This document shows, in pieces, positions 9,646-41,047 of a stretch of DNA of 64,000 bases (the first letter of the stretch is position 1; each line of letters starts with the position of its first letter). A model generated the notes under the pieces. The model was given only the letters and a program-made list of their open reading frames with translations, was not told the DNA's origin and did not search any database. Position numbers and translations under genes: made by a program. The stretch lies in contig CACIKF010000001.1 in assembly GCA_902587165.1 (NCBI GenBank), positions 124,001-188,000 on the forward strand. The letters run 5' to 3'. This stretch comes from Puniceicoccaceae bacterium (GTDB taxonomy: Bacteria > Verrucomicrobiota > Verrucomicrobiia > Opitutales > Coraliomargaritaceae).

Positions 9646-9662
9646 AACAAATAGATGATCAA

Positions 9663-11240
9663 TTAGTTTGTATCAGCGGTTCCGCGCTCCTCATGGAGGC
9701 GAATCATTCGAATACATTTTTCCTCCTGTGAGGACTGGAAGTTTACATGGTTTTGTGAGACATCCACAGCATAAGCTTTTTGCTTATTGGTAGGATCGGC
9801 TGCAAGTTCGTCCTTAAGCTTGACCAAGCGCTTTTCTCCGCTCTCGAGCCAGCCGCCCTGCAACTGGGCGAGATAATTACGACGCGTCGTGGTCACAGTT
9901 TCGGCGTTCACTCGGTTGAGATAGTCTGCACGGCGCTTATCTAAACTTGCCACAAGCTCCGGCATCTGCTTCGCAAGGTTGGTCTTTTCGCTCAGATCAT
10001 TGGCCACATTGTAGAGCTCATACTCGAGCGTATCCAGATTCTTGCGCAACTTAAAATCGCCAACGCGGATCATAGATTCAGGCTCACCGGTATGCCAAGG
10101 GAAGTGGAAGACTAGTTCCTCAGTATTGCGCATAACTTTGCCCTCGTCGCCATTAAACCATACATCCTTGAGGCTACCGCCATCCAGGTCAGCTGGCAGC
10201 GGCTCGGTGCCGCCGGCGAGATCATAAAAGGTCTGCAAGAAATCCCACTGCACCATCGGCACAGATGTGTAAGTCCCCGGATCAATACCCGGACCACGGA
10301 CGATGGATGGCATTCGCAAGCCACCTTCGAGAAGGTTGCCCTTACCTCCTCGCAGCGGATTATTGCCACGGAAACCGCCGCCATTGTCGGAGGTAAAGAG
10401 GACATAAGTATTATCTGCAATGCCAAGCTCATCCAAGGTATCAAGGATCATGCCAAACGCGCGGTCGGTATCATCTAACATCGCCGCATAATTAATCAAC
10501 CAACCATTGGTATACATGCCGACCGGAATTTCTTCTTCAGGGGCGTAGTCCTTATCTTCACCTTTCTTAGGGCGCGGAAGTTTCTTGTATTTGTCGCGAG
10601 TCGCTTGAAGCGAGTCGTGCCAGATATGCATCGCGTAGTGTGAAAGCTGCACATAGAAGGGTTTACCCGCATTGACTTGTTCGCGCATAAATTCATTAGT
10701 TAATTCCGTCAGTGAAAAAATACGCTTGGGGTCATCGTCAGGTAGCGGTGTCTTGCCGTCATCCATGAAGTCACCTGGGCCATTGCCGTTATTGTCTCCA
10801 TCAAGTATGTCGTAACCCGCAGCGGCTGGTTTGATACATTCATTATGCCACTTACCGAAGTGCGCCGTCACATACTGTGGGTCCACCTGCTTTAGAGCCT
10901 GTGGGATCGTGATCTGGCCGCGATAGTCCTTCTTCACTTCAACCGCAGATAGTGTGGTCAAGCGCATGCGAGCCGGCGTCATACCGTGCAATAAGCTGTT
11001 ACGCGACGGCGCGCAAAGTGGCGCAGGCGAGTAACATGCAGACAAGACACGGCCACCAGCAGCGAGACGCTCAAGGCTGGGCGTCTGGAAGTAGTCGCTA
11101 CGCGTTTCTGGATTGCCCTCAATCATCTCAACTGAGGTCTGAGCCCAACCGAGGTCATCTATGTAGATTAGGACAAAGTTAGGTACTTTGGCAGCCAGTG
11201 TAGTCGCGAAAAATAAAGTCAATAAGAGCGATACCTTCAT
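9663..11240 (-). CDS. exported type I sulfatase (paralogue group of four)
   Basis: 525 residues with a signal peptide (VSLLLTLFFATTLAA). The formylglycine site is C-A-P-S-R at Cys76, followed by NSLLHGM. Metal ligands I-D-D-L-G, then G-K-W-H, H-Y-A-M-H, S-D-N-G-G and GGKGNLLEGG are all present, so this is the most canonical of the four related paralogues together with the 964 gene. It has the shared QWDFLQTFYDLAGG block and a C-terminal tail with Lys/Glu-rich helices. It is predicted to desulfate the glycan outside the cytoplasm. It begins 26 bases after the GH127 stop and ends 17 bases before the next sulfatase start. Confidence 0.93.
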   Translation of the reverse strand: MKVSLLLTLFFATTLAAKVPNFVLIYIDDLGWAQTSVEMIEGNPETRSDYFQTPSLERLAAGGRVLSACYSPAPLCAPSRNSLLHGMTPARMRLTTLSAVEVKKDYRGQITIPQALKQVDPQYVTAHFGKWHNECIKPAAAGYDILDGDNNGNGPGDFMDDGKTPLPDDDPKRIFSLTELTNEFMREQVNAGKPFYVQLSHYAMHIWHDSLQATRDKYKKLPRPKKGEDKDYAPEEEIPVGMYTNGWLINYAAMLDDTDRAFGMILDTLDELGIADNTYVLFTSDNGGGFRGNNPLRGGKGNLLEGGLRMPSIVRGPGIDPGTYTSVPMVQWDFLQTFYDLAGGTEPLPADLDGGSLKDVWFNGDEGKVMRNTEELVFHFPWHTGEPESMIRVGDFKLRKNLDTLEYELYNVANDLSEKTNLAKQMPELVASLDKRRADYLNRVNAETVTTTRRNYLAQLQGGWLESGEKRLVKLKDELAADPTNKQKAYAVDVSQNHVNFQSSQEEKCIRMIRLHEERGTADTN

Positions 11241-11266
11241 CGATTATATAATTATTTAAATATAAA

Positions 11267-13828
11267 TTAAAAATGCCTTGCTTGACGGAGATTCAATTCC
11301 AGATCAAACAACCCGACTGACTTACCCGCTTGCGCTTCTATATTGATACGCAGTCCCCCACAGGTCAGCTCGGCTGCTGGGTGGATCGTATTGAAACGAT
11401 CCTTCGTGACTCCGTAAGCATCGGTGATATATTTCTCAAAAGGATACCAACTGCCATCGAGCAAATACTCAATTTTCCAATCCGCCGGCACATCGACTTG
11501 ATCGTTACTCACCCAGAAGAGGCCTAGGCGCTCCACTGTCTGAGGTTGGTCAAATATCATCTGGATCCACTCTTTAGAAGACTCCCCGGAGCTAATCCAT
11601 GCCTCGATCGTCGTGTCTGCAGACGAGTCTGGGCGACGGCCATCCTTGACCGCCTCAATAACACCATTCGCTGCGCAACTAGAAGCCGTGACAGTGCCAT
11701 ACTTAGACGGGTCGAAATGCACGCGGGAGAGTTGCGCTTGCGCACCTTCAATCGCGTCAGGCAACCAGACTACCATCGTCGCATTGCCACGGTTGTTCCA
11801 GTTCAGATATGGGACAAACTTTAGGCCCGCACTACGTGACTCACCATTCACAAGCTCGGCTGCGGGCACAGTTACAATGGGTGTGCCCTGTAAAATGCCG
11901 TCTTCGAATTGAGTCACTGTGCAGCTATCACTCGAAGGGAGTTCGGGTAGATAGAAACGCTGCACTACACCATCATTATCTGCTTCCTCAGCACACATAA
12001 CAAGAGGTCCACGAGTCAGAGACACACGACCACGGTTGTCGACAACCCTGTCATCACAAGTGTTAAAGCGTAAGTCCATCGGTAAATCTAACTCGATCAC
12101 ATCGCCGGTAACCCAAATACGGTTAATTTCAACAAAGCCCTTTATCACTTCAGCTTGAACCACTTCTCCGTTGACCTTCAAAGTCCATTTGGGTGCGGTT
12201 TGCTTGGTGTAGCTGTAAAGCTTACCTGGCACAAATTGCTCGCCTAAGGCCCAAGTAGGGATACGGAGCTTGATGGCAAACTGAGCAGGATACAGCAGGT
12301 CCGTTTCGATACGAATAGCACCTTCATATGGATACTCAGTTTCCTGCCTGAGAGTGAGCTCGGTATCGGCGACGGGAACTGTGACTTCATTACCTGAGTA
12401 GAGCAAAGCATACACAGTGTCGTCCTCTACCGCATACATATACCCTCCCACATGATTTATAACTCGTGCAATATTCGATGGGCAGCACGCACAGTCGAAC
12501 CACGGCGAACGACCCGCTGATCCATGATTAAACAACTGGTGGCCATCCGCCTCCAGCGGATTGACATAGAAGAACTTATTACCCTCCACGTTGATACCGG
12601 CAAGTGAGTTATTAAAAAGCGCAACTTCCGCAACATCGAAATATTTCGCGTCTTTGTGCAGCAGTGTCATCCGATGGTTGAAGAATAAATTGCCAATCGC
12701 CGCACAAGTTTCGTTGTAGGCATCGAGATTTGGCAGATCGTAATTTTCGCCAAAACCTTCGATGCCATGAATCGCTCCGAGACCGCCAGTGATATGCATC
12801 TTGGCATCAACAATATTTGTCCAAATTGCCTCCAATGCGTGGTTGTAAGTATCGTCTCCGGTGAGTGCACTGACGTCAGTCATCGCAGCATACATGTAGG
12901 CTGCACGCACTGCGTGGCCGACGGCAGTGGTCTGCTCCGCAACTGGCGCATGCTGCTGAGCATAAGTGGGAGACATGGTGCCCTTGCCATCTGGGCGATA
13001 TGTAACACCACGAATATCAAGAAACTTTTTGGCCATGTTCAGATAGAGCTCATTACCAGTGGCACGATAGAGACGGCACAATGCTAGCTCTGGCTCTTGA
13101 TGACCAGGCGCTTGATTGATCGGCACACCACCGTTGTAATTCGGGTCTCCGACGAAAAAGGCCTTGTTGACGTGCTGTGCACTCTTCTCGGCTATGTCCA
13201 GCCAAGCACGTTTGCCAGTGGCTTCAAAATAGGCAACTGCACCCTCGTAAAGGTGCCCCACATTGTAAAGTTCGTGGCTATGCACGACCCAGGAATATGG
13301 CTTCAGCCCCATTTCGGCCTCATCAGCGATTCCGCAGGTATGAGAAACATAGAGATAACCATCCTCTTGCTGAGCCATACCAATAATATTAATCAGCTCA
13401 TCCATCTGGGCTTCCAAGTTCGGATCGGCCTCTAGGTTGAGTAGGTAGGCTGCGCCCTCCATTACTTTATATAAATCTGAACTTACAAAGCGATGGGTGA
13501 ATGGCATTTCATCTTTTTCACCGCGTAAATAGGATCCACAACGGCGTAAATTCTCTGCAGCGCGCTCGGTCTTTCTCAAGGCAAAAGGCACTGTTTCATT
13601 CTTTTGCAGCTGCAAGCGTGGTAGCCAAAATGCATCGTTCAAAGCCACTTTGCAAAATGCAATAGGCGCTAAGGAGTAGTCCTGTTTTAGTTCTAGTGTA
13701 TTCATCGTATCGAAGTTATTGCCGAACTCGGCGGTAAATTTGGCCTGGTTGTACGAAAACTTTGTCTCCTTCGTCAACGCTAGGACTAGCACTACTGCGC
13801 CAGCCAGTGCCACCAATAAACCCAGCAT
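11267..13828 (-). CDS. GH127-type glycosidase (beta-L-arabinofuranosidase family)
   Basis: 853 residues. The N-terminus (1-19) is a hydrophobic anchor or signal (LLVALAGAVVLVLAL). An (alpha/alpha)6 domain starts near residue 60 with VALNDAFWLPRL, a GH127 hallmark. The Zn/catalytic residues of the characterised family are visible: E373-x-C375 in YNETCAA and the Cys pair C448-C449 in CACCPSN. One of the pair is the nucleophile in HypBA1 (family knowledge). Beta-sandwich domains follow to the C-terminus. The predicted activity is release of beta-linked L-arabinofuranose or a related sugar. If the second Met (residue 42) were the start, the protein would be cytosolic; the first is preferred because a hydrophobic anchor follows it. 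Confidence 0.87.
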   Translation of the reverse strand: MLGLLVALAGAVVLVLALTKETKFSYNQAKFTAEFGNNFDTMNTLELKQDYSLAPIAFCKVALNDAFWLPRLQLQKNETVPFALRKTERAAENLRRCGSYLRGEKDEMPFTHRFVSSDLYKVMEGAAYLLNLEADPNLEAQMDELINIIGMAQQEDGYLYVSHTCGIADEAEMGLKPYSWVVHSHELYNVGHLYEGAVAYFEATGKRAWLDIAEKSAQHVNKAFFVGDPNYNGGVPINQAPGHQEPELALCRLYRATGNELYLNMAKKFLDIRGVTYRPDGKGTMSPTYAQQHAPVAEQTTAVGHAVRAAYMYAAMTDVSALTGDDTYNHALEAIWTNIVDAKMHITGGLGAIHGIEGFGENYDLPNLDAYNETCAAIGNLFFNHRMTLLHKDAKYFDVAEVALFNNSLAGINVEGNKFFYVNPLEADGHQLFNHGSAGRSPWFDCACCPSNIARVINHVGGYMYAVEDDTVYALLYSGNEVTVPVADTELTLRQETEYPYEGAIRIETDLLYPAQFAIKLRIPTWALGEQFVPGKLYSYTKQTAPKWTLKVNGEVVQAEVIKGFVEINRIWVTGDVIELDLPMDLRFNTCDDRVVDNRGRVSLTRGPLVMCAEEADNDGVVQRFYLPELPSSDSCTVTQFEDGILQGTPIVTVPAAELVNGESRSAGLKFVPYLNWNNRGNATMVVWLPDAIEGAQAQLSRVHFDPSKYGTVTASSCAANGVIEAVKDGRRPDSSADTTIEAWISSGESSKEWIQMIFDQPQTVERLGLFWVSNDQVDVPADWKIEYLLDGSWYPFEKYITDAYGVTKDRFNTIHPAAELTCGGLRINIEAQAGKSVGLFDLELNLRQARHF

Positions 13829-13933
13829 TTTTGTAGTAATTTATAATTGTATTATGAGCGATTAAAATAGTAGGGGTGTCGAAATGCAGGTATTAAGCCA
13901 TTCGTCGAATCAGCATATTTTGAAAAGCCATAT

Positions 13934-16900
13934 CTATTTAGGCCGTCGCCACGATTCAGGCGAAATAAATTGATACTCTGGCTCATCGCCCTTCTTCGAC
14001 TTAACGGTCAGTCGTGTGCGATGCCCATCTTGATAGTAGTAGAGATCCACTCGGTGTAAGCCCTGCTTTAGCCCGACACTCCCTTCCGCTTCCCATGCAT
14101 CCACATAGGAGTGCGTATCTAAATCAACTAGCACTTGCCCATCAATCACAATCCTCGCGCCATCATCCGCATGTAGGTGGAAGTGATACACTTCATCGAC
14201 TGGCACACTGAGATAGCTGGTTAGGTGTAAAGCATAACTCTCTGAGCGATCGCCAGCAATCGCTGCGACTTGAATATTTTGATTGAACTGATCGATTGAT
14301 AAAGTCCCGGTTCGCGTAGGTTCTAAATTTTCAAAATCAGGTAGTCTCGTGCTCTTATTGCCTAATTCATAATAACGATAGAACATGCCAGGCTGAGTCG
14401 TTGCTAAATCCACTTCCGATGGCTTCAATTCGGTTGCCGTGTAGACCATATCATACGGCGTGTAGTTCGACCCATCCTCAGCAAAGGCGAGCAGCTTGAA
14501 GTTTGTCGTTGCATCGATTGAGATCGCTGTATCCCAAATCGTTGAGTCTGAAGTCGGCACGGAGCCATCGGTGGTGTAACGTATGGCGGTGCCAGGAAGT
14601 AAATTCTCTATATCAACTGTTACGGACCCATGGAAAATGCGTGCGCGTGGCGTCGACCACACAAGGGTCTCATAGGATTTAAGTTTTTCGCCTAGAGTCA
14701 ATTCAACCTGTGCAGATGATTGATCACTAGTGAATTCGACTGCGGTGCTACGTGAAACCGCTTCACCTGGACCACTCGCCGCGATCAGGGAGCGATCCTC
14801 AGTGTAGGGCGCAATGATCGTCTCCTTCAATGGGTTGCCGTTTACTTCAGCAAGCAAGGTCACTTGATCTCCCTCAAATTGACGGTCTACGCGTGCATGA
14901 ACCCACTGAGTCTTCCCTTCGATAACAACGGGTGTAAACGTTTCGATATAATCCCAAGTAGATGGCAAGTGTGGTGCGAAAGTAAACTGCTGATCGGGAA
15001 TGCTGTAATCCAGTCCAGCCAACCACTCGATCATAGGCAACACATGCGCTAGGTCCCAGTTGTAGTAACGTGAACCCCATGCCTTGTGATTCTCTTCCCA
15101 TGCTTCGGGTGCAACAGGATAGCCCCACTCTCGATGCATCGCATTGGTATGGTTTAAAGTCGTCAAAATGCCCGCGTAAGCTTGATCCTGGCGAAACATT
15201 CCATCGATCGCTAGCCATGTGCTGATCGTCGAACATCGGAAGATGCCATTAGGAGGACTGTCAGCCGCGCGAGTATTGACACCAACTGGCGAGGCAAAAC
15301 CCTTATCCGTATCGAGGACATACTCTTCGACCATCTGCTCACCCCACTCTTTTGGCATCGCCACGGACTGAAGTGCGGAGAGGGCCCAGATATCTTTCCA
15401 CGGCACTCCGCGTCCGCCGTAAAAACCATCCCAACGCCCCGACCATTGATGTTTGAAACTTTTAACCATCTGAGGGCGGAAGGACTGCCAGTGCTCGGCG
15501 TCGTTTGTTTCGCCAAGTGCTGATGCCATGTTCGAAAGCGCATCGACTGCGTTTACTTCGGTGCCGAAACTCTTAGTGGGCCCATTGCCGTCCCAATAAA
15601 GCGGTTTGAAGACCTTGCCATAAACCTCTTCCAAATACTTTTTGTCACCTGAGCGACGATACTGTTGCCATGCCGGCTCGGTCGCACCGACGAAGACCAT
15701 CCGCACCAAGGGAGAATACCAGCCCTTACCAAAATTATCGGGCATGTTGTTGGCCTTATTTTTAAACGGTACCATGAATTGCCACGATAGCGCATTGCCA
15801 TGTCCATACTGCCACTTATCGGCGACCCATGAGCCGGCTTGAATGTAGGCCCATGAATCCCACAGGTGCAGCCCCATGAAGTTGTTGACCGCCGTCTGCG
15901 TGTGCGGGTATTTCAGCCAACCCTCGCCAATATCGCGGAAATACATAAAATTGAGCGCCCAAAGATAGTAGTATGTTTCAACTGCCTTCTCGTCCGAACA
16001 GCGAAAATAAGGAATCTGTTCGTTGAGCAGATTATTGATCCACTCAGTCTTTACTGCCATTGCTGGCATCGCTTCGGCATTGCCTTGCTGTGTGCGAGAA
16101 AGTGCATCGGAATATTCATCCGCAACCGCTAGCGTAAGCGATACGGGCTGATCTGCTGGCAAGTTCAAGACAAAGGAGTAGCCGAGATTACCTTTCGGCC
16201 GCTTGGACCACTTAACATCCTCCATCGGCACGCTGGAACTGTAGACAAAGCTCAGGCCGTCATACATCATGCGCCCAAGCTTCGTAGGTTCGCCGTAGAG
16301 GGGCTTGGCGATTGCCGTGCCAGCCTCTAGTAAGCGCAGCGCATTGGCCGACTCGTCAAATGTGATTTCAGATTCACAAGTGCGTGAAAAACTACCTTCT
16401 ACGTCGTCACCATCAAATCTTGGAACCTTACTAGGCTCCCAAAAGCTTTCACCCTCAAAACGAATGGATACATCCTTATCGGACACGATCACCGTCGTGA
16501 GCACATCATCGCGGCTAATGAATTTATCTTCGTTAATGTTCACTCCAGCAATTTCGTAGTTGGCAACCATCTTATCTGGGCGCCAGTTCAAAGTCTTTGG
16601 TTTTGGGTGCTTATGTTCGCTGCCGTCAACGATCAAGGTCCCATATGCAGAACGCGTCTTGCGCCAAAATTCCCAACCCCAGGAGTCGTGGCCATCACCG
16701 CCGACCTCAGACTGCACAATCGCATTGCCACGTGCACGACCATCACGAAAGAGCGGGTGAGTGAAACCAAGTGTTTCTGACTCCAAATATTCTTCCCAGT
16801 CGGCACCAAACGAGCCCGCCACATAGTAGAGCTTATTACCCGCGATGAAGCCATAGTGCTCCCCCTGAATATCACGCTCAAGCATTTCGCAATAATCAGC

Positions 16901-17050
16901 GCGTGGTGGAATACTAGTAGACTCTACACTATCAGCAGATTGACCCACAGAGTGCGGATCGTCCTGAGGAGCATTGTCGTGAGGCGCACTGCAGCCATTA
17001 GAAAAAGCAGCTAAAAAACTAAGGCTCAGAAATGAAATAAGAAAACGCAT
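13934..17050 (-). CDS. MGH1/GH63-like glycosidase lipoprotein with FN3-associated and PA14 domains
   Basis: 1038 residues from the ATG at 17050. I prefer this start to an upstream TTG because it is followed by a lipoprotein signal ending FSNGC. An N-terminal beta-sandwich (about 50-330) precedes an (alpha/alpha)6 barrel with LHLWDSWAY (Asp near 398) and a later region NWDLAHVLPMIEWLAG, resembling the clan containing GH63 and YgjK, where the W-D-S Asp is the general acid. A chitobiase-C/FN3-associated repeat (AIRYTTDGSVPTSDST) follows. The last about 150 residues are a PA14 domain (LHADDGARIVIDG), often glycan binding. It is probably an outer-surface exo-glycosidase; the linkage is unknown. 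Confidence 0.78.
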   Translation of the reverse strand: MRFLISFLSLSFLAAFSNGCSAPHDNAPQDDPHSVGQSADSVESTSIPPRADYCEMLERDIQGEHYGFIAGNKLYYVAGSFGADWEEYLESETLGFTHPLFRDGRARGNAIVQSEVGGDGHDSWGWEFWRKTRSAYGTLIVDGSEHKHPKPKTLNWRPDKMVANYEIAGVNINEDKFISRDDVLTTVIVSDKDVSIRFEGESFWEPSKVPRFDGDDVEGSFSRTCESEITFDESANALRLLEAGTAIAKPLYGEPTKLGRMMYDGLSFVYSSSVPMEDVKWSKRPKGNLGYSFVLNLPADQPVSLTLAVADEYSDALSRTQQGNAEAMPAMAVKTEWINNLLNEQIPYFRCSDEKAVETYYYLWALNFMYFRDIGEGWLKYPHTQTAVNNFMGLHLWDSWAYIQAGSWVADKWQYGHGNALSWQFMVPFKNKANNMPDNFGKGWYSPLVRMVFVGATEPAWQQYRRSGDKKYLEEVYGKVFKPLYWDGNGPTKSFGTEVNAVDALSNMASALGETNDAEHWQSFRPQMVKSFKHQWSGRWDGFYGGRGVPWKDIWALSALQSVAMPKEWGEQMVEEYVLDTDKGFASPVGVNTRAADSPPNGIFRCSTISTWLAIDGMFRQDQAYAGILTTLNHTNAMHREWGYPVAPEAWEENHKAWGSRYYNWDLAHVLPMIEWLAGLDYSIPDQQFTFAPHLPSTWDYIETFTPVVIEGKTQWVHARVDRQFEGDQVTLLAEVNGNPLKETIIAPYTEDRSLIAASGPGEAVSRSTAVEFTSDQSSAQVELTLGEKLKSYETLVWSTPRARIFHGSVTVDIENLLPGTAIRYTTDGSVPTSDSTIWDTAISIDATTNFKLLAFAEDGSNYTPYDMVYTATELKPSEVDLATTQPGMFYRYYELGNKSTRLPDFENLEPTRTGTLSIDQFNQNIQVAAIAGDRSESYALHLTSYLSVPVDEVYHFHLHADDGARIVIDGQVLVDLDTHSYVDAWEAEGSVGLKQGLHRVDLYYYQDGHRTRLTVKSKKGDEPEYQFISPESWRRPK

Positions 17051-17201
17051 GATTGATAAAGGATGGCATCCCAAAAACAGGATGTCTGTATAATACATGA
17101 TCCAGAAAGTATTACCATTGGTGAACACGACCAAAAACTGTCATATTGCGCCAATTTTGTAGAAAATACTATTTAAATATATTCGGATTTTCTCAGATCG
17201 C

Positions 17202-18845
17202 TCATGAAGGTGGCCACGGAATCCTACGCAGCGAATCACGCGTTTCTGGGTAAGGTAAAACATCCGATGACTTTGCCCATGCACGCCATTTAGCCTTCAA
17301 CTCTTTGAGCTTTTCTGGGTAAAGCTGACTCAAGTCCTCTGATTCACTGCGGTCAGCGCTCAAATCATACAATTCCCAGGCATTCGGATCGCGGTCATCC
17401 GATGTCACAAGCTTCCAATTTCCGTCCCGAATTGCCGCATTGATCTCATGCTGCCAATACAAGGTACGCTCCATCGGCGGAGCGGTTCCGTTGAACCATG
17501 GCAGCAAACTCATGCCTTCCCCCGGCGTAATCGAACGCCCTTGGTAGTTAATAGGATACTGAGCCCCAGCGACCTCGCATAATGTCGGCATAATATCTAT
17601 TAAATGGAAAGTCTGATCCATGCAAAGCTGCCCTGATTCTGCAATACCCTGCGGCCAGTGTGCAATCAAGGGCGACGCAATACCGCCTTCGTGCACAAAA
17701 ATCTTATACTTTCGCAGCGGCGTATTGGAGAGACTCGCCCAGCATTGTCCTTGAGCCGTAGCCCATCCCCCCTCAGTACGCCATTCTGGGTAATTACCAG
17801 AATGGTAGTTCGACCAATTCATTCCAAAGGGACCTAATTCTCCAGAACAGCCATTATCCGACATGAACAAAATTAGTGTCTCGTCCAAAATACCCCGCTC
17901 GGCCAAATCATCAATCACCCGTCCCACATTCAAATCCATGTGTTCGACCTGCGCCGCATAGAGTGAGCGGCGAAAATCTAGTTCTTCCTGATCGGAATCG
18001 GACAAACTATCCCAAGCCGGCAACCCGCAGGAATCAACCGAGGGTTTAAAATCAAAGCCCTCACGTTCCTCTTGATCAAATCCAACCACTTCCGGTAAAG
18101 TCTGACTCGTCGGCACAATCCCCATGGCCTGCATGCGCTCCAACTTTTCCGCGCGAAGTTGATCCCATCCTTTACGATAGCGGCCTCGATATTTATTAAT
18201 CAACTCATCTGGAGCTTCTAAGGGGAAGTGCGGTGCATTGTAGCATAAATGTAAGTAAAACGGATCGTCCGGTTCGCGGCAGGCCTGATCGATATAATCC
18301 AATGCGACATTAGTGAAAAATTCAGTCGTATGGAATTCTTGATCCGGCGCATAGGGGTCAGTAGGCACAGCATCCGACCCAATAAAGAGTTCGCCATCGC
18401 GATAGATCTCACAGCCCGGGAGCACTTTCCAGTAACTATCAATGTGCGTATAGATTCCAGTGAATTTATCAAAGCCGCGCAGCTCTGGACGAAACTGCGG
18501 CTCATGCCCAACATGCCATTTACCAGACAGCATCGTCTGATAGCCGGCAGAACGAAGCACTTCTGCGGTTGTCACACAGCGATCATTCAAGCCTCCCTGA
18601 TAGCCGTCACCAAAATCTCGATATACCATCATGCCCACACCGGCTTGATGCGGATACAACCCTGTCAACAAACAGGCACGCGAAGGACAGCAGCGCGGCG
18701 TGTTGTAAAACTGGCTCGCCCTGAAACCGCTCGCCCCCAGGCGATCTAAATTCGGCGTATCAATTTCCCCTCCAAAACAACCGAGGTCAGAAAACCCCAT
18801 ATCATCGACCAGAATAGTAATTATATTGGGCCTTTTCGCGCTCAT
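17202..18845 (-). CDS. cytosolic arylsulfatase, AtsA-like
   Basis: 547 residues and no signal peptide; the protein begins directly with RPNIITILVDDMGFSDLGCF. The formylglycine site is C-C-P-S-R (Cys52), followed by ACLLTGLYPHQAG. G-K-W-H-V-G, Y-N-A-P-H and S-D-N-G-C are intact, as is K-I-F-V-H-E-G-G near the C-terminal half. Length and the opening block resemble Pseudomonas arylsulfatase AtsA (about 536 residues), which is also cytoplasmic. It probably removes sulfate from imported oligosaccharides or their products. It is paralogous to the 31581 and 35679 genes but, unlike them, not exported. It follows the epimerase gene by 40 bases, downstream of the transporter genes. Confidence 0.92.
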   Translation of the reverse strand: MSAKRPNIITILVDDMGFSDLGCFGGEIDTPNLDRLGASGFRASQFYNTPRCCPSRACLLTGLYPHQAGVGMMVYRDFGDGYQGGLNDRCVTTAEVLRSAGYQTMLSGKWHVGHEPQFRPELRGFDKFTGIYTHIDSYWKVLPGCEIYRDGELFIGSDAVPTDPYAPDQEFHTTEFFTNVALDYIDQACREPDDPFYLHLCYNAPHFPLEAPDELINKYRGRYRKGWDQLRAEKLERMQAMGIVPTSQTLPEVVGFDQEEREGFDFKPSVDSCGLPAWDSLSDSDQEELDFRRSLYAAQVEHMDLNVGRVIDDLAERGILDETLILFMSDNGCSGELGPFGMNWSNYHSGNYPEWRTEGGWATAQGQCWASLSNTPLRKYKIFVHEGGIASPLIAHWPQGIAESGQLCMDQTFHLIDIMPTLCEVAGAQYPINYQGRSITPGEGMSLLPWFNGTAPPMERTLYWQHEINAAIRDGNWKLVTSDDRDPNAWELYDLSADRSESEDLSQLYPEKLKELKAKWRAWAKSSDVLPYPETRDSLRRIPWPPS

Positions 18846-20099: not shown

Positions 20100-21482
20100 T
20101 CAGTTCATCTTTTCCGACGCACTCCGAGCACTAATGATTTCGTTCTTCCCACGGATGATCCGGCTTCTTCCTTCAAAAAAGCGCACATAAGACTTTAGCT
20201 CGTCCTCCCAGCTCTTTTCATATTTCTCATCCCCCGCTAGGAACAATATAACATTCAAAGATGGGGGCTGTTGCCCTCTGCTAATATACAACTTTTCGAT
20301 CACTTCTGTGAAGTGTTTTTCAACGCGTCTCGGGTCAATGTCCGTATGGCCAGGGCCACCCCCAGGGTGGAGGTTCTTCCATTTTAGTCCCAACTCTTTG
20401 GCTGCGCTACGGACGTCATCGATCTTACGGGCAAGCACACGGGGCGGTTCCCCGCGACTGGCACGAGCTTTGTTGATTTTAGCCAATTCATTGGCAACCC
20501 GTTGCTTCATCTCTAGCTCTTCTTGGTAAAATGCAGCAGCCTGGTCTTGATAAGCTTGGGAAGATCTAAGTTCTTCCCAAGCTAATAGCTGCGCCTCACT
20601 CGGTGGAGCCACCACCTTACCAAAACCACGGTGGTCGCCTGTAATCATAAAGATCGCGTCTGCACTTTGCTCAATGACAAGCTGAGTCATAAATGCAGTG
20701 TGGTTGTGCCCATTATTCCACGAAACCGCAGCTTGCATCTCGCTCTCTGGCAATGCTCTGAGCAGTGGCACAAAAGAGTCGTAAACACCCTCGAGGCCGG
20801 GTCTAGTCGCATCATCATTCACCGCTGAGATCCATTTAATCAACTCCTGATGCACCTCCGCTCCTGATGGCACTAGCCGTGGTTTGAAGAGCTTAATACG
20901 TCTAATATCCGTTAGCATAACGTTAAACAGGGTACCCGCAGAAAGGTTGCCTACCATATCAGAAATCTCATCTTTGATCACACGGTAACTATCCAAGCCA
21001 CCCTTTTTATCTGTTACCATTCGGCGATTTGTATCAATCACAAACAGGATACGCTCTGCCCGCGTCTTCAGGCCAAACACACTAATATCCGAGATCCCCA
21101 TGCCGATACTTCCGCGCGTGCCTCCGAGTAATCGACCCCCGCCAACTCCACCCAATCCTGCACTCACGGTAAAGCTCTGGTCCATATCAGGCAAATTTAC
21201 ATCCACATCAGCCACTGCAATATTTGCAACAGGGCGCATGCTTAAGCGCTGCGTTTGCGGGACTTTCGCCTGCTCCGGTCGAATGACTACCTTCACCTCT
21301 CGCGGTGGCTCTTCTTCAACGACCGATGGCGGAACCTCAAATTGCGCATCGTCCTGAATCACAATTGTAGCAATCGTCACGACTCCCGCGATAAAAGCTC
21401 CTACTACGTGCACCAAAACACTGGCGACGATCACCTTCATCAGCATCGGGTTCATCTTCTTCTTCAATTCGGCTGGTATCAT
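20100..21482 (-). CDS. membrane-anchored VWA-like protein with degenerate MIDAS
   Basis: 460 residues. A transmembrane helix (about 16-42) is followed by a Pro/Glu-rich linker with EEEPPREV, a Gly-rich segment (GGVGGGRLLGG near 110-121) and a VWA-like domain from about 144. Where VWA domains have D-x-S-x-S, it reads ILFVIDTNRRM (Asp150, Asn152, Arg154), so the metal site is probably lost. A charged helical region (about 290-350) may be coiled coil. It sits between the permease and epimerase genes in the transporter operon (27 and 38 bases apart). It may scaffold a glycan uptake complex; I cannot name the function. Confidence 0.6.
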   Translation of the reverse strand: MIPAELKKKMNPMLMKVIVASVLVHVVGAFIAGVVTIATIVIQDDAQFEVPPSVVEEEPPREVKVVIRPEQAKVPQTQRLSMRPVANIAVADVDVNLPDMDQSFTVSAGLGGVGGGRLLGGTRGSIGMGISDISVFGLKTRAERILFVIDTNRRMVTDKKGGLDSYRVIKDEISDMVGNLSAGTLFNVMLTDIRRIKLFKPRLVPSGAEVHQELIKWISAVNDDATRPGLEGVYDSFVPLLRALPESEMQAAVSWNNGHNHTAFMTQLVIEQSADAIFMITGDHRGFGKVVAPPSEAQLLAWEELRSSQAYQDQAAAFYQEELEMKQRVANELAKINKARASRGEPPRVLARKIDDVRSAAKELGLKWKNLHPGGGPGHTDIDPRRVEKHFTEVIEKLYISRGQQPPSLNVILFLAGDEKYEKSWEDELKSYVRFFEGRSRIIRGKNEIISARSASEKMN

Positions 21483-21509: not shown

Positions 21510-23321
21510 TTATTTCTCTGTCGGGACAACGATTCCCTGAATGATGACTTTTTGGCAAAGTATGAAAATCAATAAAGTTGGCACCGCCGCAATCATGAGC
21601 GATGCAAAGACGACGCCCTGCGAGGAAAACTGCTGCAATTGGTAGAGCCACACGGTCAGTGTCCACATGTCTTTATCCTGACACAAAATGAATGCATACA
21701 TGAAATTAGCATAAGCCCCATTGAAAGCCCCCAGCGCGATCACTGCAAGAATCGGCTTAGATAAATTCATAGTTATCATCCAGAACTTCTGCCACTCACT
21801 CGCCCCATCGATGTCGGCCGCTTCAAATAACTCTTGCGGCAAGCTATCAAAGAAGCCCTTGAGCAAGAAGATCGAGTAACCATTCGCCATAGTCGGCAGC
21901 AGTAATGCTGCAAAAGTATTCAACAAGCCCAAATCGCGCAGCAATAGGAAATTCGGGATCATCGTCACCACCCCCGGAAATGCCATCGTCGCAATGAGAA
22001 ATAGAAGCACCTTGAATTGCCCTGGTAGCTTGTAGCGCGACAAGGCATATGCTGCAAGGGGATTAACCAGCAGCGCTAGTGCGATTGCCGCCAAGCAATA
22101 GATCAAAGTATTCTCAATGCCGCTACCGTAGAAGAAGATATACTCCAGCACCATGCGGTAATTGTTGCCTACGAAGTAAACCCTTAAATCGCTCGCGTTA
22201 GCTTCTACATACTTAAGATCCGCTTCGACTTGCGGCATATGCACCTCCGAAAAAGATTCGTAATGGCGCTCATGCGCTGAGGCTGTGGCACTAATAGAAC
22301 CGTATTTATTTTCCAAATACGCCTGCCAGCGGAGCTCTGGAGTGTCCAAGGATAGGGCCCCCAATTCACAGAGGTCTGGGTTCGAAATAAATTGCAAAAA
22401 ATCAGACAGCTGAACCGAAGCTGTCATTTTATTTTCAGGCATTACAACTGAATCAAAAGTTGAATAGTCAGTTGCATAAAGTTTGTTAAGATGCACCACG
22501 ACTCCATACTTACTTTCTAGGTATGCTACCCAAGCTTCCTTCTGCGACGCATCCACCCTGATGAACTGCGGATGTAAGAATCCGCGCACATACGCTTCCC
22601 ATTCCGGTAAATTAGAGCGAACAGTCAGATGAGAATCTGCCCCTCCCAATTGGGCTAGCTTCAAATATCGAAGATAGGACGCATTACAGGATACGTATAT
22701 CTGATCTTCCAGTGGCAGGGTCTGCTTAAATGCGTAAAATGCCTCTATTAAAGGAGACGAGCTCAATTGATACTTGCGGTCCGTTAGGCGCTCCGGCGGA
22801 AACTTTAAAAAGAACCAGCTTTCAATCGGTTCGTCAAAACGCTCATGGAAGACTTCGAGATCGTTACCGCACAAGTCACTTACATACTGACGAAATGCGC
22901 GTTCGTTACGTTGAATTATTTTACCCTCCTGTGTTGGCCCGAACGCTGTGAGGAACCAGCTAGTTGGCATCTTCGCAGAACTGACGAATTCCGTCCAGTC
23001 TGCCACTAATACTGGATTATGATAGGGTAATGTGACCGCTCTGAAGTTGGGCGCATCGTCTCCCGTCGCAGAGCGAAATTCTACAATTCGTTCACTATAC
23101 TTCGCTTCCACATACTTACGAAAAAGCATCGTGTCATCGTGAATAAAGCGCGGCACAAGATCCAGTTCTTGTACGTCTACTCGGCTCTTAAACGAACCAG
23201 ACGCCATCAACAAAAAGGGATAGACCATGCTGAGCGAGCCCAAGGCCAACGAGGCATATAAAGCAAAATAAACGAGGCGCGAACGAAATTGCCTTTTCTC
23301 AGATGGTAAAATAACAGGCAT
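21510..23321 (-). CDS. sugar ABC transporter permease (MalG-like) with repeat-containing periplasmic insert
   Basis: 603 residues, about twice the usual 280. TM1 (about 17-40) is normal. An insert of about 330 residues then separates it from the remaining helices (from about 403), which carry the EAA loop QELFEAADIDGASEWQKFW. The insert has recurring units: FRKYVEAKYSE (67), WVAYLESKYGV (264) and WQAYLENKYGS (332), each followed about 20 residues later by F-x-x-V-x-x-P. Weaker copies lie near 143 and 241. It faces the periplasm by topology. It is coupled to the upstream fused permease gene (4-base gap). With it and the ATPase it should import an oligosaccharide. The insert may bind the ligand or the fused binding domain. 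Confidence 0.88.
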   Translation of the reverse strand: MPVILPSEKRQFRSRLVYFALYASLALGSLSMVYPFLLMASGSFKSRVDVQELDLVPRFIHDDTMLFRKYVEAKYSERIVEFRSATGDDAPNFRAVTLPYHNPVLVADWTEFVSSAKMPTSWFLTAFGPTQEGKIIQRNERAFRQYVSDLCGNDLEVFHERFDEPIESWFFLKFPPERLTDRKYQLSSSPLIEAFYAFKQTLPLEDQIYVSCNASYLRYLKLAQLGGADSHLTVRSNLPEWEAYVRGFLHPQFIRVDASQKEAWVAYLESKYGVVVHLNKLYATDYSTFDSVVMPENKMTASVQLSDFLQFISNPDLCELGALSLDTPELRWQAYLENKYGSISATASAHERHYESFSEVHMPQVEADLKYVEANASDLRVYFVGNNYRMVLEYIFFYGSGIENTLIYCLAAIALALLVNPLAAYALSRYKLPGQFKVLLFLIATMAFPGVVTMIPNFLLLRDLGLLNTFAALLLPTMANGYSIFLLKGFFDSLPQELFEAADIDGASEWQKFWMITMNLSKPILAVIALGAFNGAYANFMYAFILCQDKDMWTLTVWLYQLQQFSSQGVVFASLMIAAVPTLLIFILCQKVIIQGIVVPTEK

Positions 23322-23325: not shown

Positions 23326-25821
23326 TTAACTCTTAGCAGTGGTGAAAGTCATGCGAGATATCCGCTTCATTTGGAACATCGTTAATCCAATCAAGAAGAA
23401 GCCCAAAATCCATGCTATCGCGATCGCAACGCCAAAGCGCAGATATACATATGCATCGTAGAAAATCTCAAGCCCGATCACATGCGTCGCGTGGTCAGGT
23501 CCGCCAGCGGTCATGACCAACACATTATCGGCCGACTGAAAAGCACCGATCAATACAAAGATCAATTGAATCATTACTAAAGGCCGAATCGTCGGTAGCG
23601 TAATATGCCAGATGCGCCCCAAGAAACCAGCCCCATCAATTGCGGATGCCTCGTAGAGATCTTCTGGCACAGTCTTGAGTGCCGCGAGATAAATTAAACA
23701 GCCTGGACCCATGCCCGCCCATGCCAGCGGTATAATAATCGAAACCATTGCCTGTGACTTATCTTGTAGCCATTTTTGCGGGCCAAAATCTAAAATGGCC
23801 AGCACTTGATTGAGCGCACCCGCCTCTGATGGATCAAAGAACATTTTCCACATCAACATCACGATCAGGCCCGAGACTAAGGCAGGCAAATAATACAATA
23901 CGCGGAACAAGACACTCGCGCGCGGTAATTCGCTCAAACAAAGCGCTAATATGATCGGTGGTAGAAATACCAATAAGAGGCTCCAGAAAACATACTCTGC
24001 CGTGCGTATAATTGATACCCAGAAGACACTATCAAACAATACGGCTGCAAAATTATCAACACCCACAAAGGTGGATTCGCCTATCACATTATAGTCCAAA
24101 AATGCCATCCGAGCACCCACCACTAAGGGGTAATAATTAAATACAAAAATCGAAGCAAGCGCTGGGGCAAGTAATACATACGCGAGCCAATATTTCTTCA
24201 GCCACCCCCAAAAACCGCGCTTCACTTCACCTTCTGGTCCAGAGAACAGGCGCCAAATATACGTAAACATTAACCCAAATGATACCGCGACTAGGAGCAT
24301 CACCGCGGAGGCCACCTTACGCCGAAATACCATCACATCCTCAGGAATTTGCCCAAGCATCTTCTCATTAATTTCCTGCACCGCCGTATCATACAACGCC
24401 TGCAACCGAGCTAGGCGTGTCCCATCATCCGCAATACGCGGCACGCCCTCAGAAAATGCGCTCTGCAAGGGCTTACTAGCCCGTTCAATGTACACTTGGC
24501 AATTCTCGCCATACGGCTCGGGTAATGAATTCTCCAAAGCGAATTCAAGGGTATGCTTCCACTGCGCGGGCACGGTAGCTGCGTATTCAGTATAGCCATG
24601 CTGTGCCAGTTTCTCTGGATTGATGAAACTAGCGTATCCATTTTCCACATACGTTTGTACGATTACACGCTCCGCCGCCGGACTTCCCACAAATCGTAGA
24701 AATTTCCAAGACGCGGCAATCTTTTCGGGATCTTCCGTGGTCGCGCAGACCCCCAAGCCACGTACATGTAACTCAGTAATGGATTTCCCGGAAGGCGCAA
24801 ACGGAACAGGCACCAAGCCAAGCTCTCCTGGGCTCATACTGGAAATGTGATCATCCGCATTGATCAAAATATCGTTTATGTAGAGCAAGCTCATCCCGAT
24901 ACGGCCACGGTCCCAGATTGACCAAGCCTCACCGCTACTCATTCCAACGCCATAGCGCTGCTCCCCATCCTCATCGGTCCAGGGAGCATCTACGAGCTTG
25001 GAGTAAAAGTCAGCCGCCTGCACCGCGCCCGCATCGTTGAAACGAGCGACCCAATTGCCTGTATTTTCCTCGCGCTCGACAATTTTTGAACCCATAGAGA
25101 AGAAGAAAGGCAGCGAGGTCCAACCAGCTCCACCCTCTTTCCCTAGAATAATACCATAACGGTCCTCACCGGGGTCTTGAATCTGTTGCGCAACCGCCGC
25201 AAGTTCATCCCATGTTTTTGGATAATCCTTATCCGGATCAAGGCCCGCCTCTTGAAAGACAGTCTTATTATATGCCATCACGCGGACAAAATAACTAAAC
25301 GGTAAAAAATAAAAATGTCGCTTACCGTCAGAATCAACGCGCGACACCGCGTCCCAAATTTGAGGCCGTACCCGCTCCTCCAACTCATCACGATACATGA
25401 TGTTTTCATCGTATTCACCTAACTTCTTTGCTTCGGCGGCGGTCTGCTCCGAATTAATGTATTCATCCAAAGGCAGCAAAAAGTTACGCCCAATGTAGCT
25501 CCCCGACTGCCTTGTATTCACATGTATCACATCCGGCGCAGTGCGCCCGGCAATGGACATCAAAAGTGGCGCTTCACCTGCTGGTCCTTCCAGCTTCAGC
25601 GACAATGAATTGCCCTCTGGGCGGATGTTCGGATATTTTTCACGAAAGGCACGATATACAGCCATCTCTGCCTTACCAGCTATGCTAAAAAGCGCATCGG
25701 GGCTAGGCGCGAAATCGGTCGTCCGAATCGACACAGTTGATTCGGCAGTCACTGTTACTGAAAAAAACGCTATTTTACAAAGCAGAAGAGCTAAGAAAAA
25801 ATGTAATCGCGAGGCACACAT
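23326..25821 (-). CDS. fused sugar-binding protein and ABC permease (MalE-MalF-like)
   Basis: 831 residues from the ATG at 25821; an in-frame TTG 12 bases upstream is less likely. After a signal peptide, residues about 27-490 form a family 1 extracellular solute-binding protein (RTAPDVIHVNTRQS, PKTWDELAAVAQQI, WSIWDRGRIGMS). A helix near 505-525 and then a full MalF-like permease follow (from about 545), with the EAA loop EDLYEASAIDGAGFLGRIW. So binding protein and permease are one polypeptide. The frame is continuous, with no stop or frameshift between the two parts. It precedes the second permease by 4 bases. The predicted role is oligosaccharide capture and import. Confidence 0.92.
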   Translation of the reverse strand: MCASRLHFFLALLLCKIAFFSVTVTAESTVSIRTTDFAPSPDALFSIAGKAEMAVYRAFREKYPNIRPEGNSLSLKLEGPAGEAPLLMSIAGRTAPDVIHVNTRQSGSYIGRNFLLPLDEYINSEQTAAEAKKLGEYDENIMYRDELEERVRPQIWDAVSRVDSDGKRHFYFLPFSYFVRVMAYNKTVFQEAGLDPDKDYPKTWDELAAVAQQIQDPGEDRYGIILGKEGGAGWTSLPFFFSMGSKIVEREENTGNWVARFNDAGAVQAADFYSKLVDAPWTDEDGEQRYGVGMSSGEAWSIWDRGRIGMSLLYINDILINADDHISSMSPGELGLVPVPFAPSGKSITELHVRGLGVCATTEDPEKIAASWKFLRFVGSPAAERVIVQTYVENGYASFINPEKLAQHGYTEYAATVPAQWKHTLEFALENSLPEPYGENCQVYIERASKPLQSAFSEGVPRIADDGTRLARLQALYDTAVQEINEKMLGQIPEDVMVFRRKVASAVMLLVAVSFGLMFTYIWRLFSGPEGEVKRGFWGWLKKYWLAYVLLAPALASIFVFNYYPLVVGARMAFLDYNVIGESTFVGVDNFAAVLFDSVFWVSIIRTAEYVFWSLLLVFLPPIILALCLSELPRASVLFRVLYYLPALVSGLIVMLMWKMFFDPSEAGALNQVLAILDFGPQKWLQDKSQAMVSIIIPLAWAGMGPGCLIYLAALKTVPEDLYEASAIDGAGFLGRIWHITLPTIRPLVMIQLIFVLIGAFQSADNVLVMTAGGPDHATHVIGLEIFYDAYVYLRFGVAIAIAWILGFFLIGLTMFQMKRISRMTFTTAKS

Positions 25822-25907
25822 AAACAAAAACAAGAAGGCAAATTAAAACTGAAAGGTAATCGTTTCCGGCAAATCTGACTATAGCAAGAGGCGTCAAATA
25901 TATGTCT

Positions 25908-26810
25908 CTACACGACATCATGAGGTATCGTGCCTTTATTGACCGCTTTACGATATGCACCCGGAGGCATACCAAAGTGCCGTCTAAATCCTTTAGAAAA
26001 CGCAAAAACACATTGATAGCCAATACGGTCCGCGACCATTACCATCGTCATATCGGTCGAACTAAGCAACTCGCGCGCATGCTCCATACGGATGCGCATT
26101 AATAAGCCCTCAGCTGTCACATCATAATTCTCCTTCATGATCCGCTGAAACTGCCTCACGGACACATGCATACGCTTCGCCAGTGCGGGCAAGTTCCACC
26201 CTTCACCCGGATTTGCATTCACCTCTTCCCAGACATGAGTGAGACGTAAGCGCACGCGATTGCCTCCTGTAAATTGCCCATCTTTCAAATCGCGCACGAT
26301 CGCCTCTGAAATATAGGTCGCCAAACCGACCGGAGCAGTCGCTCCCGGGCCTTTAGTGGCCGCGGACTCTTGTAAATATGCCTCCATGGCGAATATGATG
26401 GGCTCTACGCTATGGGATAAATCACGGTGTAGCATCTTTCCCTCAAGATGCACGAATTCATGCGTGCGATACAAAGCCGCAGAGATAAATTTCCAATCAT
26501 CCTGCGCCTTATATTGATAAGCCGTCTCGAGAGGGCCGACCCAAATCTGTCCAGGCTCCATCACACCCACTTCACCTAAACATTCAAATTCTGCATGTCC
26601 TGAAACGGTGATCAAAGCAAGGTGCCAAGGAAAAGTCAGGCGGCGCACTTCATAGGGCGGTGCTACTTCGTGCAAGCCAAGCCCACGAATCCCATGATCG
26701 CGAAACGGCGACGCATAGCGAGGCGCCATTGGGAGGTGCTGATCGCGACATGCATCAGGTATGCAATGATACTCCTTAGTGAAGCTCGTCTGAATTGATT
26801 TGCTGGGCAT
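25908..26810 (-). CDS. AraC-family transcriptional regulator
   Basis: 300 residues. The N-terminal about 180 residues form a cupin-like sensor (PPYEVRRLTFPWHLALITVSG, MEPGQIWVGP). The C-terminal about 100 residues are the double helix-turn-helix: NLPALAKRMHVSVRQFQRIM and then VADRIGYQCVFAFSKGFRRHFG, a standard AraC signature. It is probably the local activator of the transporter and sulfatase genes in response to a sugar or glycan fragment. It lies between the ATPase gene (41-base gap) and the fused permease gene (86-base gap), in the same direction, so it may be autoregulated. A purine-rich run lies just before the ATG. Confidence 0.9.
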   Translation of the reverse strand: MPSKSIQTSFTKEYHCIPDACRDQHLPMAPRYASPFRDHGIRGLGLHEVAPPYEVRRLTFPWHLALITVSGHAEFECLGEVGVMEPGQIWVGPLETAYQYKAQDDWKFISAALYRTHEFVHLEGKMLHRDLSHSVEPIIFAMEAYLQESAATKGPGATAPVGLATYISEAIVRDLKDGQFTGGNRVRLRLTHVWEEVNANPGEGWNLPALAKRMHVSVRQFQRIMKENYDVTAEGLLMRIRMEHARELLSSTDMTMVMVADRIGYQCVFAFSKGFRRHFGMPPGAYRKAVNKGTIPHDVV

Positions 26811-26851: not shown

Positions 26852-27985
26852 TCAGGCTATCACGCAAGGCGCCTCTAGCCTCAATTCACTCTCAGCATCA
26901 AACAAATGCACCTCATCCAAATTCGGCTTCACGCTTAATGACTGGCCGATGTTCGATTGCACAATTCCAACTAATCGCACAACCAGCTTATCTCCATTTG
27001 AAACCGAAAGGTGGATAAAGCTTTCCGCACCCAAGGGCTCCCCAACCTCAACCTCTGCATGAATCGCCTGCGGGTCATCTGCCTCGCAAGCGGAAAAATG
27101 CTCAGGTCGCACTCCCAGCACTAGCGGTTTGCCTAGGTACGCTCGAGCGATCTCGCCCAAGCGGGCGGTGAGTTCTATCCGATTCGCTCCTGTTGCTTGA
27201 CTCACAAAATAATAGCCGCCATCGGCTTCCAGCACGGAGCCATGCAAAAAATTCATCTGCGGAAGACCGATAAAGCCCGCAGTAAACATATTGGCGGGAT
27301 TCTGATAAATGTTAATCGGTTCATCAACCTGCATGATTTCACCGTCCTTCATCACGCAGATCCGATCCCCCATAGTCATCGCCTCCGTCTGATCATGCGT
27401 CACATAAATCATGGTCGCGTTCAAACGCGCATGCAGCTTGGAGATTTCTGCACGCATCTGCACACGCATTTTAGCGTCTAAATTAGACAGCGGCTCATCG
27501 AACAGAAAGACATCTGGCTTACGGACGATCGCGCGGCCCAGCGCTACGCGTTGCCGCTGACCGCCAGAAAGCGCTTTTGGCTTACGGTTCAACATCGAGG
27601 TCAGTCCCAGAATGTCCGCGGCTTCTTCGACGCGTTGTTGAATCTCCGCTTTTGGAGTCTTCCGCAGCTTCAGCCCAAATGCCATATTGTCGGCAACCGT
27701 CATGTGTGGGTACAGTGCGTAATTCTGAAACACCATTGCGACACCACGATTCTTCGGCAGCACATCGTTCACAATGCGATCTCCAATACAAAGATCTCCT
27801 GAGGACGCTTCCTCTAAACCAGCAATCATACGCAAGGTGGTTGACTTACCGCAGCCCGAAGGGCCAACAAGCACCATGAATTCCTTGTCGCGTATTTCTA
27901 AATCAATCCCCTTCACCGCATAAAAGTTATCCTTTGTGCCGGGATTGTAGGTTTTTTTTAAATATTTAAGCGTGACGCCAGACAT
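26852..27985 (-). CDS. ABC transporter ATPase, MalK/UgpC/MsmX-like
   Basis: 377 residues. Walker A is GPSGCGKST (41-49), the signature is LSGGQRQRVALGRA (about 138), Walker B is VFLFDEPLSNLDA and the switch His is in YVTHDQTEAMT. A C-terminal TOBE-like regulatory domain follows (VLGVRPEHFS, HLFDAES). Length and order match the sugar-importer ATPases that serve two different permeases, so it should power the transporter formed by the two permease genes downstream. It is the first gene of the - strand run, facing the intergenic region at 27986-28356, which should hold its promoter. Confidence 0.95.
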   Translation of the reverse strand: MSGVTLKYLKKTYNPGTKDNFYAVKGIDLEIRDKEFMVLVGPSGCGKSTTLRMIAGLEEASSGDLCIGDRIVNDVLPKNRGVAMVFQNYALYPHMTVADNMAFGLKLRKTPKAEIQQRVEEAADILGLTSMLNRKPKALSGGQRQRVALGRAIVRKPDVFLFDEPLSNLDAKMRVQMRAEISKLHARLNATMIYVTHDQTEAMTMGDRICVMKDGEIMQVDEPINIYQNPANMFTAGFIGLPQMNFLHGSVLEADGGYYFVSQATGANRIELTARLGEIARAYLGKPLVLGVRPEHFSACEADDPQAIHAEVEVGEPLGAESFIHLSVSNGDKLVVRLVGIVQSNIGQSLSVKPNLDEVHLFDAESELRLEAPCVIA

Positions 27986-40093: not shown

Positions 40094-41047
40094 CTAGAGC
40101 CCCTTAAGGCAAGCGTGAACAGTCTCACTCAAGGAACCAGTCGCGAGACAGATCGCGTAATCACAAGCACCGTAATAGAGGCGGATCTGATCCTTCTCAT
40201 GATCGGCAATTGCGCCACAAGGGAAGATCGTATTATCGCAATTACCATGCTGTTCCCAAGGCTCCTCAGGCATCATTAGGTAGCTATTTGTCTTGCCGAT
40301 CACCTTCCATGGTTCGTCAAGATCCAGTAACATAGCACCGATATAGTAGTACGTGCCACCTGCAGGCGTAAACACCCCGTGGATGATATCGAGCCAGCCA
40401 TGCTCAGTTTGGATAGGCGGAGTCGGTCCAATTTTCTGAACGTTCCAGAAACGATATCCCGCAGCCAAGACCGGTTTAAATTCACCCCAGTGTACGAGGT
40501 CTGGCGACGAGCTGATCCAAATATCACCATCGCCACCATCGCCGCCGCCTGGGCGGTCCAGCTTGTAGTATTTACCATTGATCTTTTCAGGAAACAACGA
40601 GGCCCCGCGATTCTTCGGTTGCGTGATCGTTTCAATACGCTCGTAGCTCTTAAAGTCCTTCGTACGACCAAGCATACCAATCGGCGAATCGAAACCCTGC
40701 ACCATCACTGGAGTGACGATGTAATACCAATCGTCAATTTTAGTGACACGGTTGTCGATGAAGTGGTGGTAGCGATCCCAAGGCTCACCAAGCGCTTGCG
40801 TGTCGATGAAGTTCTCCTCAGACAGTTCGAAATTGATACCGTCCTTGGAACGAGCCACACGGGTCTGGCCGACATCGCGACCAAAGCCCTTCGTTGCCGC
40901 GTGCTCCACGACAGAAACAAGTAGAATCGTTTCGTCGCCGCATTGAACTGGCGCCGGATTATAAATCTGAGCTTTACCCGGAAAATCCTTAACATGTAGC
41001 AGTGGACCACCTTCGTGGCGCTTGAATATCTTTGTAGCGTCTTTCAT
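40094..41047 (-). CDS. GH130-like glycosidase/phosphorylase
   Basis: 317 residues, no signal peptide, so cytosolic. It has the five-bladed propeller motifs of GH130: IYNPAPVQCGDETILLV, DNRVTKIDDWYYIV, NRGASLFPEKINGKYYKLDR, DIWISSSPDLVHWGE, and C-D-N-T-I-F-P-C-G-A near the end with IRLYYGACDYAICLATG. GH130 enzymes cleave beta-mannosides by phosphorolysis or hydrolysis; which one cannot be told by eye. It would act on imported oligosaccharides. It lies 13 bases downstream of the sulfatase at 41060, and 80 bases upstream of the next. Confidence 0.85.
   Translation of the reverse strand: MKDATKIFKRHEGGPLLHVKDFPGKAQIYNPAPVQCGDETILLVSVVEHAATKGFGRDVGQTRVARSKDGINFELSEENFIDTQALGEPWDRYHHFIDNRVTKIDDWYYIVTPVMVQGFDSPIGMLGRTKDFKSYERIETITQPKNRGASLFPEKINGKYYKLDRPGGGDGGDGDIWISSSPDLVHWGEFKPVLAAGYRFWNVQKIGPTPPIQTEHGWLDIIHGVFTPAGGTYYYIGAMLLDLDEPWKVIGKTNSYLMMPEEPWEQHGNCDNTIFPCGAIADHEKDQIRLYYGACDYAICLATGSLSETVHACLKGL

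Follow-up and report, generated by a model that had tools for sequence, protein, structure and literature searches.

The window, the 64,000-nucleotide stretch of Puniceicoccaceae DNA analysed here, contains a gene in which a family 1 solute-binding protein runs on into a sugar permease, and raises the questions of whether such a chain is genuine, which partners it has and how an importer built on it would operate. The importers MalFGK2-E (Escherichia coli maltose) and UgpBAEC, both of the CUT1 type, resemble the encoded system in their OB/TOBE ATPase, MalF-like and MalG-like permeases and family 1 binding protein, but here the binding protein is covalently joined to MalF through an added helix.

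The fusion gene and its cassette

The fusion gene lies on the minus strand in a single open frame (23326-25833; 835 codons from a TTG start) that contains no stop or frameshift; read on the plus strand, 23326-25821 is interrupted by stops throughout. The likely start codon is the ATG at 25821, from which the product would have 831 residues. The first-pass annotation had delimited the gene as 23326-25821, an interval whose upper end coincides with this ATG, and had left out the strand, which is minus. The genes of the cassette and the parts of the fusion are as follows.

20100..21482, minus strand: 460-residue protein with no Pfam match and an N-terminal hydrophobic segment; a conserved neighbour of the partner permease in close relatives
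21510..23321, minus strand: partner MalG-like permease, 603 aa, with an extracytoplasmic insertion (Pfam, NCBIfam)
23326..25833, minus strand: fusion of binding protein and permease (open frame with Pfam and NCBIfam matches)
23356..24198, minus strand: MalF/UgpA-like permease domain, residues 546-826 of the fusion (NCBIfam UgpA)
24256..24312, minus strand: putative transmembrane helix of the tether, residues 508-526; a basic linker continues to about residue 548 (hydropathy, alignment)
24673..25653, minus strand: family 1 solute-binding domain, residues 61-387 (Pfam SBP_bac_1)
25744..25800, minus strand: signal-like hydrophobic segment, residues 12-30 (hydropathy)
25908..26810, minus strand: AraC-family regulator inside the cassette (HTH_18, E 2.4e-21)
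26852..27985, minus strand: MalK/UgpC-type ATPase of the importer (NCBIfam PRK11650, 473.6 bits over a cut-off of 432; OB_MalK and TOBE_2 over cut-off)

Both halves were recognised on the one minus-strand frame, as the first-pass annotation had proposed with residue numbers that are correct to within a few residues. SBP_bac_1 matched with E 1e-28 (101.7 bits, cut-off 26) and SBP_bac_8 also matched (Pfam), while BPD_transp_1 covered residues 641-817 (Pfam, E 3.4e-14) and UgpA scored E 3.1e-27 (NCBIfam). BPD_transp_1 reached 53.4 and 53.0 bits in the MalF-like and MalG-like permeases, respectively (Pfam cut-off 26.4), and their top equivalogs were UgpA and MalG, both under the NCBIfam equivalog cut-offs. 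The solved relatives of the fusion's permease half were AlgM1 and MalF. CUT1 importers are defined in part by a separate secreted binding protein, which is not what the fusion encodes. No second SBP_bac_1 or SBP_bac_8 domain was found in the source genome (79% complete), and that the sole match is the fused domain favours the absence of a free binding protein. Inspection by eye found no lipobox in the signal-like segment. Prediction of the fusion as a single chain gave a poor model (mean pLDDT 39.5), which was set aside as evidence.

By hydropathy, a signal-like segment comes first, then the single helix (508-526) and finally six permease helices, beginning at residue 553. The helix is followed by WRLFSGPEGEVKRGFWGWLKKYW, which is basic, as a cytoplasmic flank should be. 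A conventional CUT1 permease has its N-terminus in the cytoplasm, so that a secreted binding domain attached there needs exactly one extra crossing, and one extra helix is present. The predicted topology thus supports a binding domain tethered to the permease via one added helix. The same joint layout was common to 68 fused proteins, a set that includes near-duplicates (L007 matches L069 exactly, and several further rows are near-copies): an N-E-K-M-L-G-like stretch, R-R and the helix, and then, after a basic linker some 20-40 residues long, the permease's first helix. In the most divergent of these rows the layout was kept and the letters were not. The tether that had been proposed near residues 505-525 agrees well with this helix, its basic flank and its retention in the aligned fused proteins. 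Conservation was lowest at the junction (residues 491-548) in every one of five relatives (49-74% identity, compared with 59-83% for the binding domain and 74-91% for the permease), and third-codon-position differences dominated there, as in both domains, in all five. A stop or frameshift between the halves had been named as grounds for rejecting the fusion; instead, the frame is intact and coding constraint extends across the junction.

The order ATPase, AraC regulator, fusion and partner, with the regulator gene between ATPase and fusion, was kept in close relatives; far relatives lacked the ATPase-AraC-fusion order. Whether the 460-residue protein belongs to the importer system is uncertain, and a homologue was not seen beside the partner permease at two loci (L005 and L007). 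The best solved relative of the binding domain, found with the profile of alignment A1 over residues 58-484 at about 50 bits, was the arabino-oligosaccharide-binding protein 6rjy (AbnE). AbnE was solved as its own chain of 427 aa, whereas here the binding domain is fused. At a similarity of about 50 bits the ligand may differ. Together with one neighbouring GH127 beta-L-arabinofuranosidase-type gene (11267-13828, on the same strand as the fusion), this relationship makes an arabinose-containing oligosaccharide our best, weakly held guess for the substrate.

The surrounding intervals 964-18845 and 28501-54186 hold many sulfatase-like genes, named by eye, and the same region includes, besides the GH127 gene, a GH130 gene (40094-41047) and an MFS_2 sugar transporter (46229-47635). 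Judged from its gene content, this is a putative region for sulfated-glycan use. Among the sulfatase-like genes, 5008-7908 (minus strand) encodes a 966-residue protein with a Pfam match to HZS_alpha, the hydrazine synthase alpha middle domain (E 1.1e-31).

Distribution of the fusion in Verrucomicrobiota

A search of genome contigs found nine fused loci among close relatives, including the cultivated Lentisphaera marina (63-99% identical, the L. marina copy, L007, standing at 63%; the L006 locus is broken by a run of N), and both domains were present in all nine members of alignment A1 (the source stretch and eight relatives). Within the source's genus presence was patchy (5 of 14 genomes). At the level of the order, some part of the fusion was matched in 66 of 177 genomes, mostly by ordinary permeases. 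Twenty order-level regions were inspected, and 19 carried a fused ORF (that of L048 truncated by the contig end); the remaining one, L052, was rejected as a fusion locus, its binding protein and permease being separate genes. Across the phylum all 40 inspected regions, which were picked for looking fused, carried a fused ORF, and 14 of 14 distant fused proteins matched both SBP_bac_1 and BPD_transp_1 (Pfam), with L096 and L103 below the BPD_transp_1 cut-off. A junction profile (A3, 37 rows; E <= 1e-8), which misses two divergent fused groups, detected the fusion in 129 of 387 genomes across the phylum, including two weak matches (G339 and G388) that may be ordinary permeases. Recurrence in Verrucomicrobiota, which the first-pass annotation had named as support, is therefore strongly borne out by the junction profile and by the close relatives. 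To look beyond the phylum, a plasmid collection was searched: most of its best-scoring places carried annotations of two distinct genes, and four unannotated places that were examined (H1, H13, H20 and H21) all had separate ORFs.

The distant fused proteins L040, L041, L042, L043, L045, L046, L047 and others (914-985 aa) carry a permease insertion between the positions that match residues ~679 and ~684 of the source's fusion. It contributes one or two further hydrophobic segments and may add a pair of helices to the translocation domain. L096, L101 and L103 appeared to be extended at the N-terminus by several hundred residues, but these extensions were dismissed: they contained no Pfam domain and by eye were out-of-frame read-through in GC-rich DNA ahead of a plausible signal segment.

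A 92-row permease tree placed the fused proteins in three groups of 58 (including the source's), 6 and 4 rows. A single origin was not rejected (AU test, p = 0.293), so the three groups do not establish independent fusion events. The source's clade sits with Lentisphaera marina on this tree, which, together with the patchy presence in the genus, suggests horizontal transfer.

An insertion-bearing MalG paired with the fusion

The partner MalG-like gene begins 4 bp downstream of the fusion gene. Its first helix starts at residue 16 and its second at 406, compared with starts about 64-66 residues apart in the ordinary MalGs among the loci examined. The loop between these helices of MalG lies outside the inner membrane. 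The partner's loop holds the following features.

22128..23186, minus strand: insertion between the first and second helices, residues 46-398 of the partner (hydropathy, alignment)
22425..22544, minus strand: GH42-like module, residues 260-299 (repeat model E 3e-17, this copy being among the seeds; Pfam)
22221..22340, minus strand: second GH42-like module, residues 328-367 (repeat model E 2e-10)

The insertion is ~350 residues long and consists of tandem modules that resemble a segment of GH42 beta-galactosidases. We found 54 partner ORFs, the source's included, with at least 570 aa in 43 of them; 36 of these long partners, near-duplicates left out, formed alignment A4. All 36 matched BPD_transp_1 and 26 matched GH42 at E <= 0.01 (Pfam). 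The source's own GH42 match fell below the Pfam cut-off of 21 (19.7 bits, E 6e-4), and other partners exceeded it (L097 57.5 bits; L070 74.5 bits, the best match at E 1.3e-20). A model of the repeat, for which 33 motif matches from these very partner proteins served as seeds, gave 108 matches at E < 0.01 in the 36 insertions and none in each of 10 shuffled sets, and two or more matches occurred in 35 of the 36. The longest arrays were observed in the partners of L070, L071, L076 and L097 (768-844 aa; insertions of 518-594 residues), with up to seven repeat matches at E < 1.

When an insertion profile (27 of the 36 rows) was compared with solved structures, GH42 beta-galactosidases came top (9ta3, 9.7e-8; 1kwg, 8e-6), above weaker matches to agarases, a GH167 enzyme and beta-amylases. 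The insertion repeats the W..YL..KYG...LN..Y segment of these GH42 enzymes with its surroundings, but as tandem copies in a permease loop, and no complete catalytic barrel was found. Among the matches listed, those to GH42 covered only profile positions 136-264 of 376, and since they span only a segment of the enzyme we take the insertion to be probably non-catalytic. A phmmer search with the L070 insertion alone returned no GH42 structure, despite its strong Pfam match. The partner's predicted structure had a mean pLDDT of 54.0 and was fair only in the repeat region (10-residue blocks 250-380 at 73-90), with the permease part modelled without confidence; Foldseek with this model gave nothing at E <= 0.001, and the GH50, GH42, GH167 and GH14 enzymes that fill most top rows were not counted as evidence.

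The fused MalF and the insertion-bearing MalG co-occur almost perfectly, even where they are unlinked. Among 288 phylum genomes, 98 had both, one had the fusion only (G413, which lacked a strong partner match), four had the partner only and 185 had neither; these are raw counts that ignore kinship, taken with cut-offs of E <= 1e-20 (joint) and E <= 1e-60 (partner), with G339, G388 (weak) and genomes above G431 dropped and the joint search assumed to span all 288. Thirteen genomes had no linked partner in the fetched region, and in each the A4 profile matched elsewhere or at another copy (the permease part was included in 12 of these matches, G269 being matched only over the N-terminal 276 positions). 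Among 14 close relatives, the partner was present in all eight with the fusion and in none of the six without it. With a distinct MalG-like gene 4 bp away and this co-occurrence, the transmembrane part is likely a MalF-MalG heterodimer.

The pairing differed in the smaller groups of the permease tree. The 6-row fused group had ordinary MalGs of 283-303 aa (one listed as 378 aa from an early start), and the 4-row group had MalGs of 383-391 aa with a shorter loop than in the source's partner. Fusion therefore does not strictly require the MalG insertion, as these two divergent fused groups have short MalGs. In L054, L055, L057 and L058, fused proteins of 948-1003 aa that make up a group of their own, the first helix of the MalG-like partner is followed by a loop of intermediate length, roughly 130-150 residues.

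Proposed mechanism, alternatives and significance

ATP-driven sugar uptake is the most likely function predicted for the cassette. We consider it probable, from the gene content and topology, that it encodes a CUT1-type (maltose/UgpA-like) ABC sugar importer in which one binding protein per complex is permanently tethered and MalG carries an array for docking or for handling glycans. The extra helix would cross the membrane once and keep the binding domain above the pore at high local concentration, and the heterodimer would imply one binding domain per MalF-MalG-MalK2 complex. In E. coli the MalF P2 loop is the large extracytoplasmic loop that docks MalE; here the large extracytoplasmic loop is instead on MalG and carries GH42-like repeats, and by analogy this array may fill the role of P2, docking the tethered domain, holding glycan or both. 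The substrate would be an oligosaccharide, possibly arabinose-containing, that the sulfatases and glycosidases encoded around the cassette set free. A more specific version, in which the tethered domain is permanently docked over the pore and the GH42-derived, non-catalytic array is its obligate counterpart, forming a vestibule that passes oligosaccharides into it, is a tentative idea that we think rather doubtful as a whole.

The simplest rival to a genuine fusion is an assembly or frameshift error that merged two neighbouring genes. Sugar importers usually have the SBP and MalF genes side by side, and these were separate ORFs in four of four plasmid places checked, so that one lost stop would make a fusion; the same junction is present in many genomes, however, and coding constraint runs through it, and we regard an artefact as ruled out by recurrence and codon pattern, with a negligible residual chance. 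If the chain is real, it could still be cut near the tether after secretion, freeing the binding protein and leaving co-production as the only effect of fusion. The low conservation of the junction in all five relatives would fit cleavage, but the extra helix and the N-E-K-M-L-G/R-R stretch are kept across the aligned fused proteins, and a freed binding domain would need no helix, which makes this reading unlikely.

Two other alternatives assign the complex a different activity. The insertion might be an active glycosidase coupled to import that trims entering glycans, as the strength of the GH42 match in the L070 partner could suggest, but the matches listed are confined to profile positions 136-264, the acid/base residue of GH42 lies upstream of that segment, and the same segment is repeated in place of one complete barrel; we judge an active enzyme very unlikely. 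A complex that, rather than transporting, chiefly senses sugar on behalf of the AraC regulator encoded next to it would fit the position of the regulator gene between ATPase and fusion, yet the ATPase is a complete MalK type, both permeases have loops that by eye look EAA-like, and far relatives do not share the AraC gene order. This sensor role seems to us the more improbable of the two activities. A tethered importer remains the preferred reading.

Tethering of a binding domain is already known from other importers. In OpuA (Lactococcus lactis), the binding domain is tethered to the permease by a hydrophobic anchoring sequence together with a short linker (PMC11065425). Each of the two TMDs of OpuA is linked to a binding domain, two in all, GlnPQ has four sites on a homodimer, and their substrates are glycine betaine and amino acids (PMC11065425, PMC8025302). 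Compared with OpuA and GlnPQ as described there, the fusion is alike in that a binding domain is covalently joined to the permease chain, but it would place one family 1 domain at the N-terminus of one of two different sugar permeases. The accessible parts of a study of marine Verrucomicrobiota mention putative sugar transporters as possible substitutes for SusCD and do not describe this architecture (PMC8857213). In the open full-text literature, which includes few subscription journals, we found no description of a MalF permease that carries a fused family 1 binding protein and no described sugar (CUT1) case of tethering. Sequence databases surely contain such proteins, and this statement concerns functional descriptions only.

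For annotation, a ~900-residue 'solute-binding protein' in these bacteria may be half a transporter. The large MalG repeat insertion, which the first-pass annotation did not include, nearly always accompanies the source's type of fusion, and the paired GH42-like array is a candidate co-evolved docking surface. If the vestibule were real, a whole phylum of polysaccharide degraders would have turned pieces of an enzyme into a transporter module. Sugar import that depends on a binding protein is modelled on MalFGK2-E, for which the kinetic importance of having the binding protein free is a standing question. A naturally tethered sugar system that is common in this phylum, with a probable 1:1 stoichiometry, would offer a direct comparison with it.
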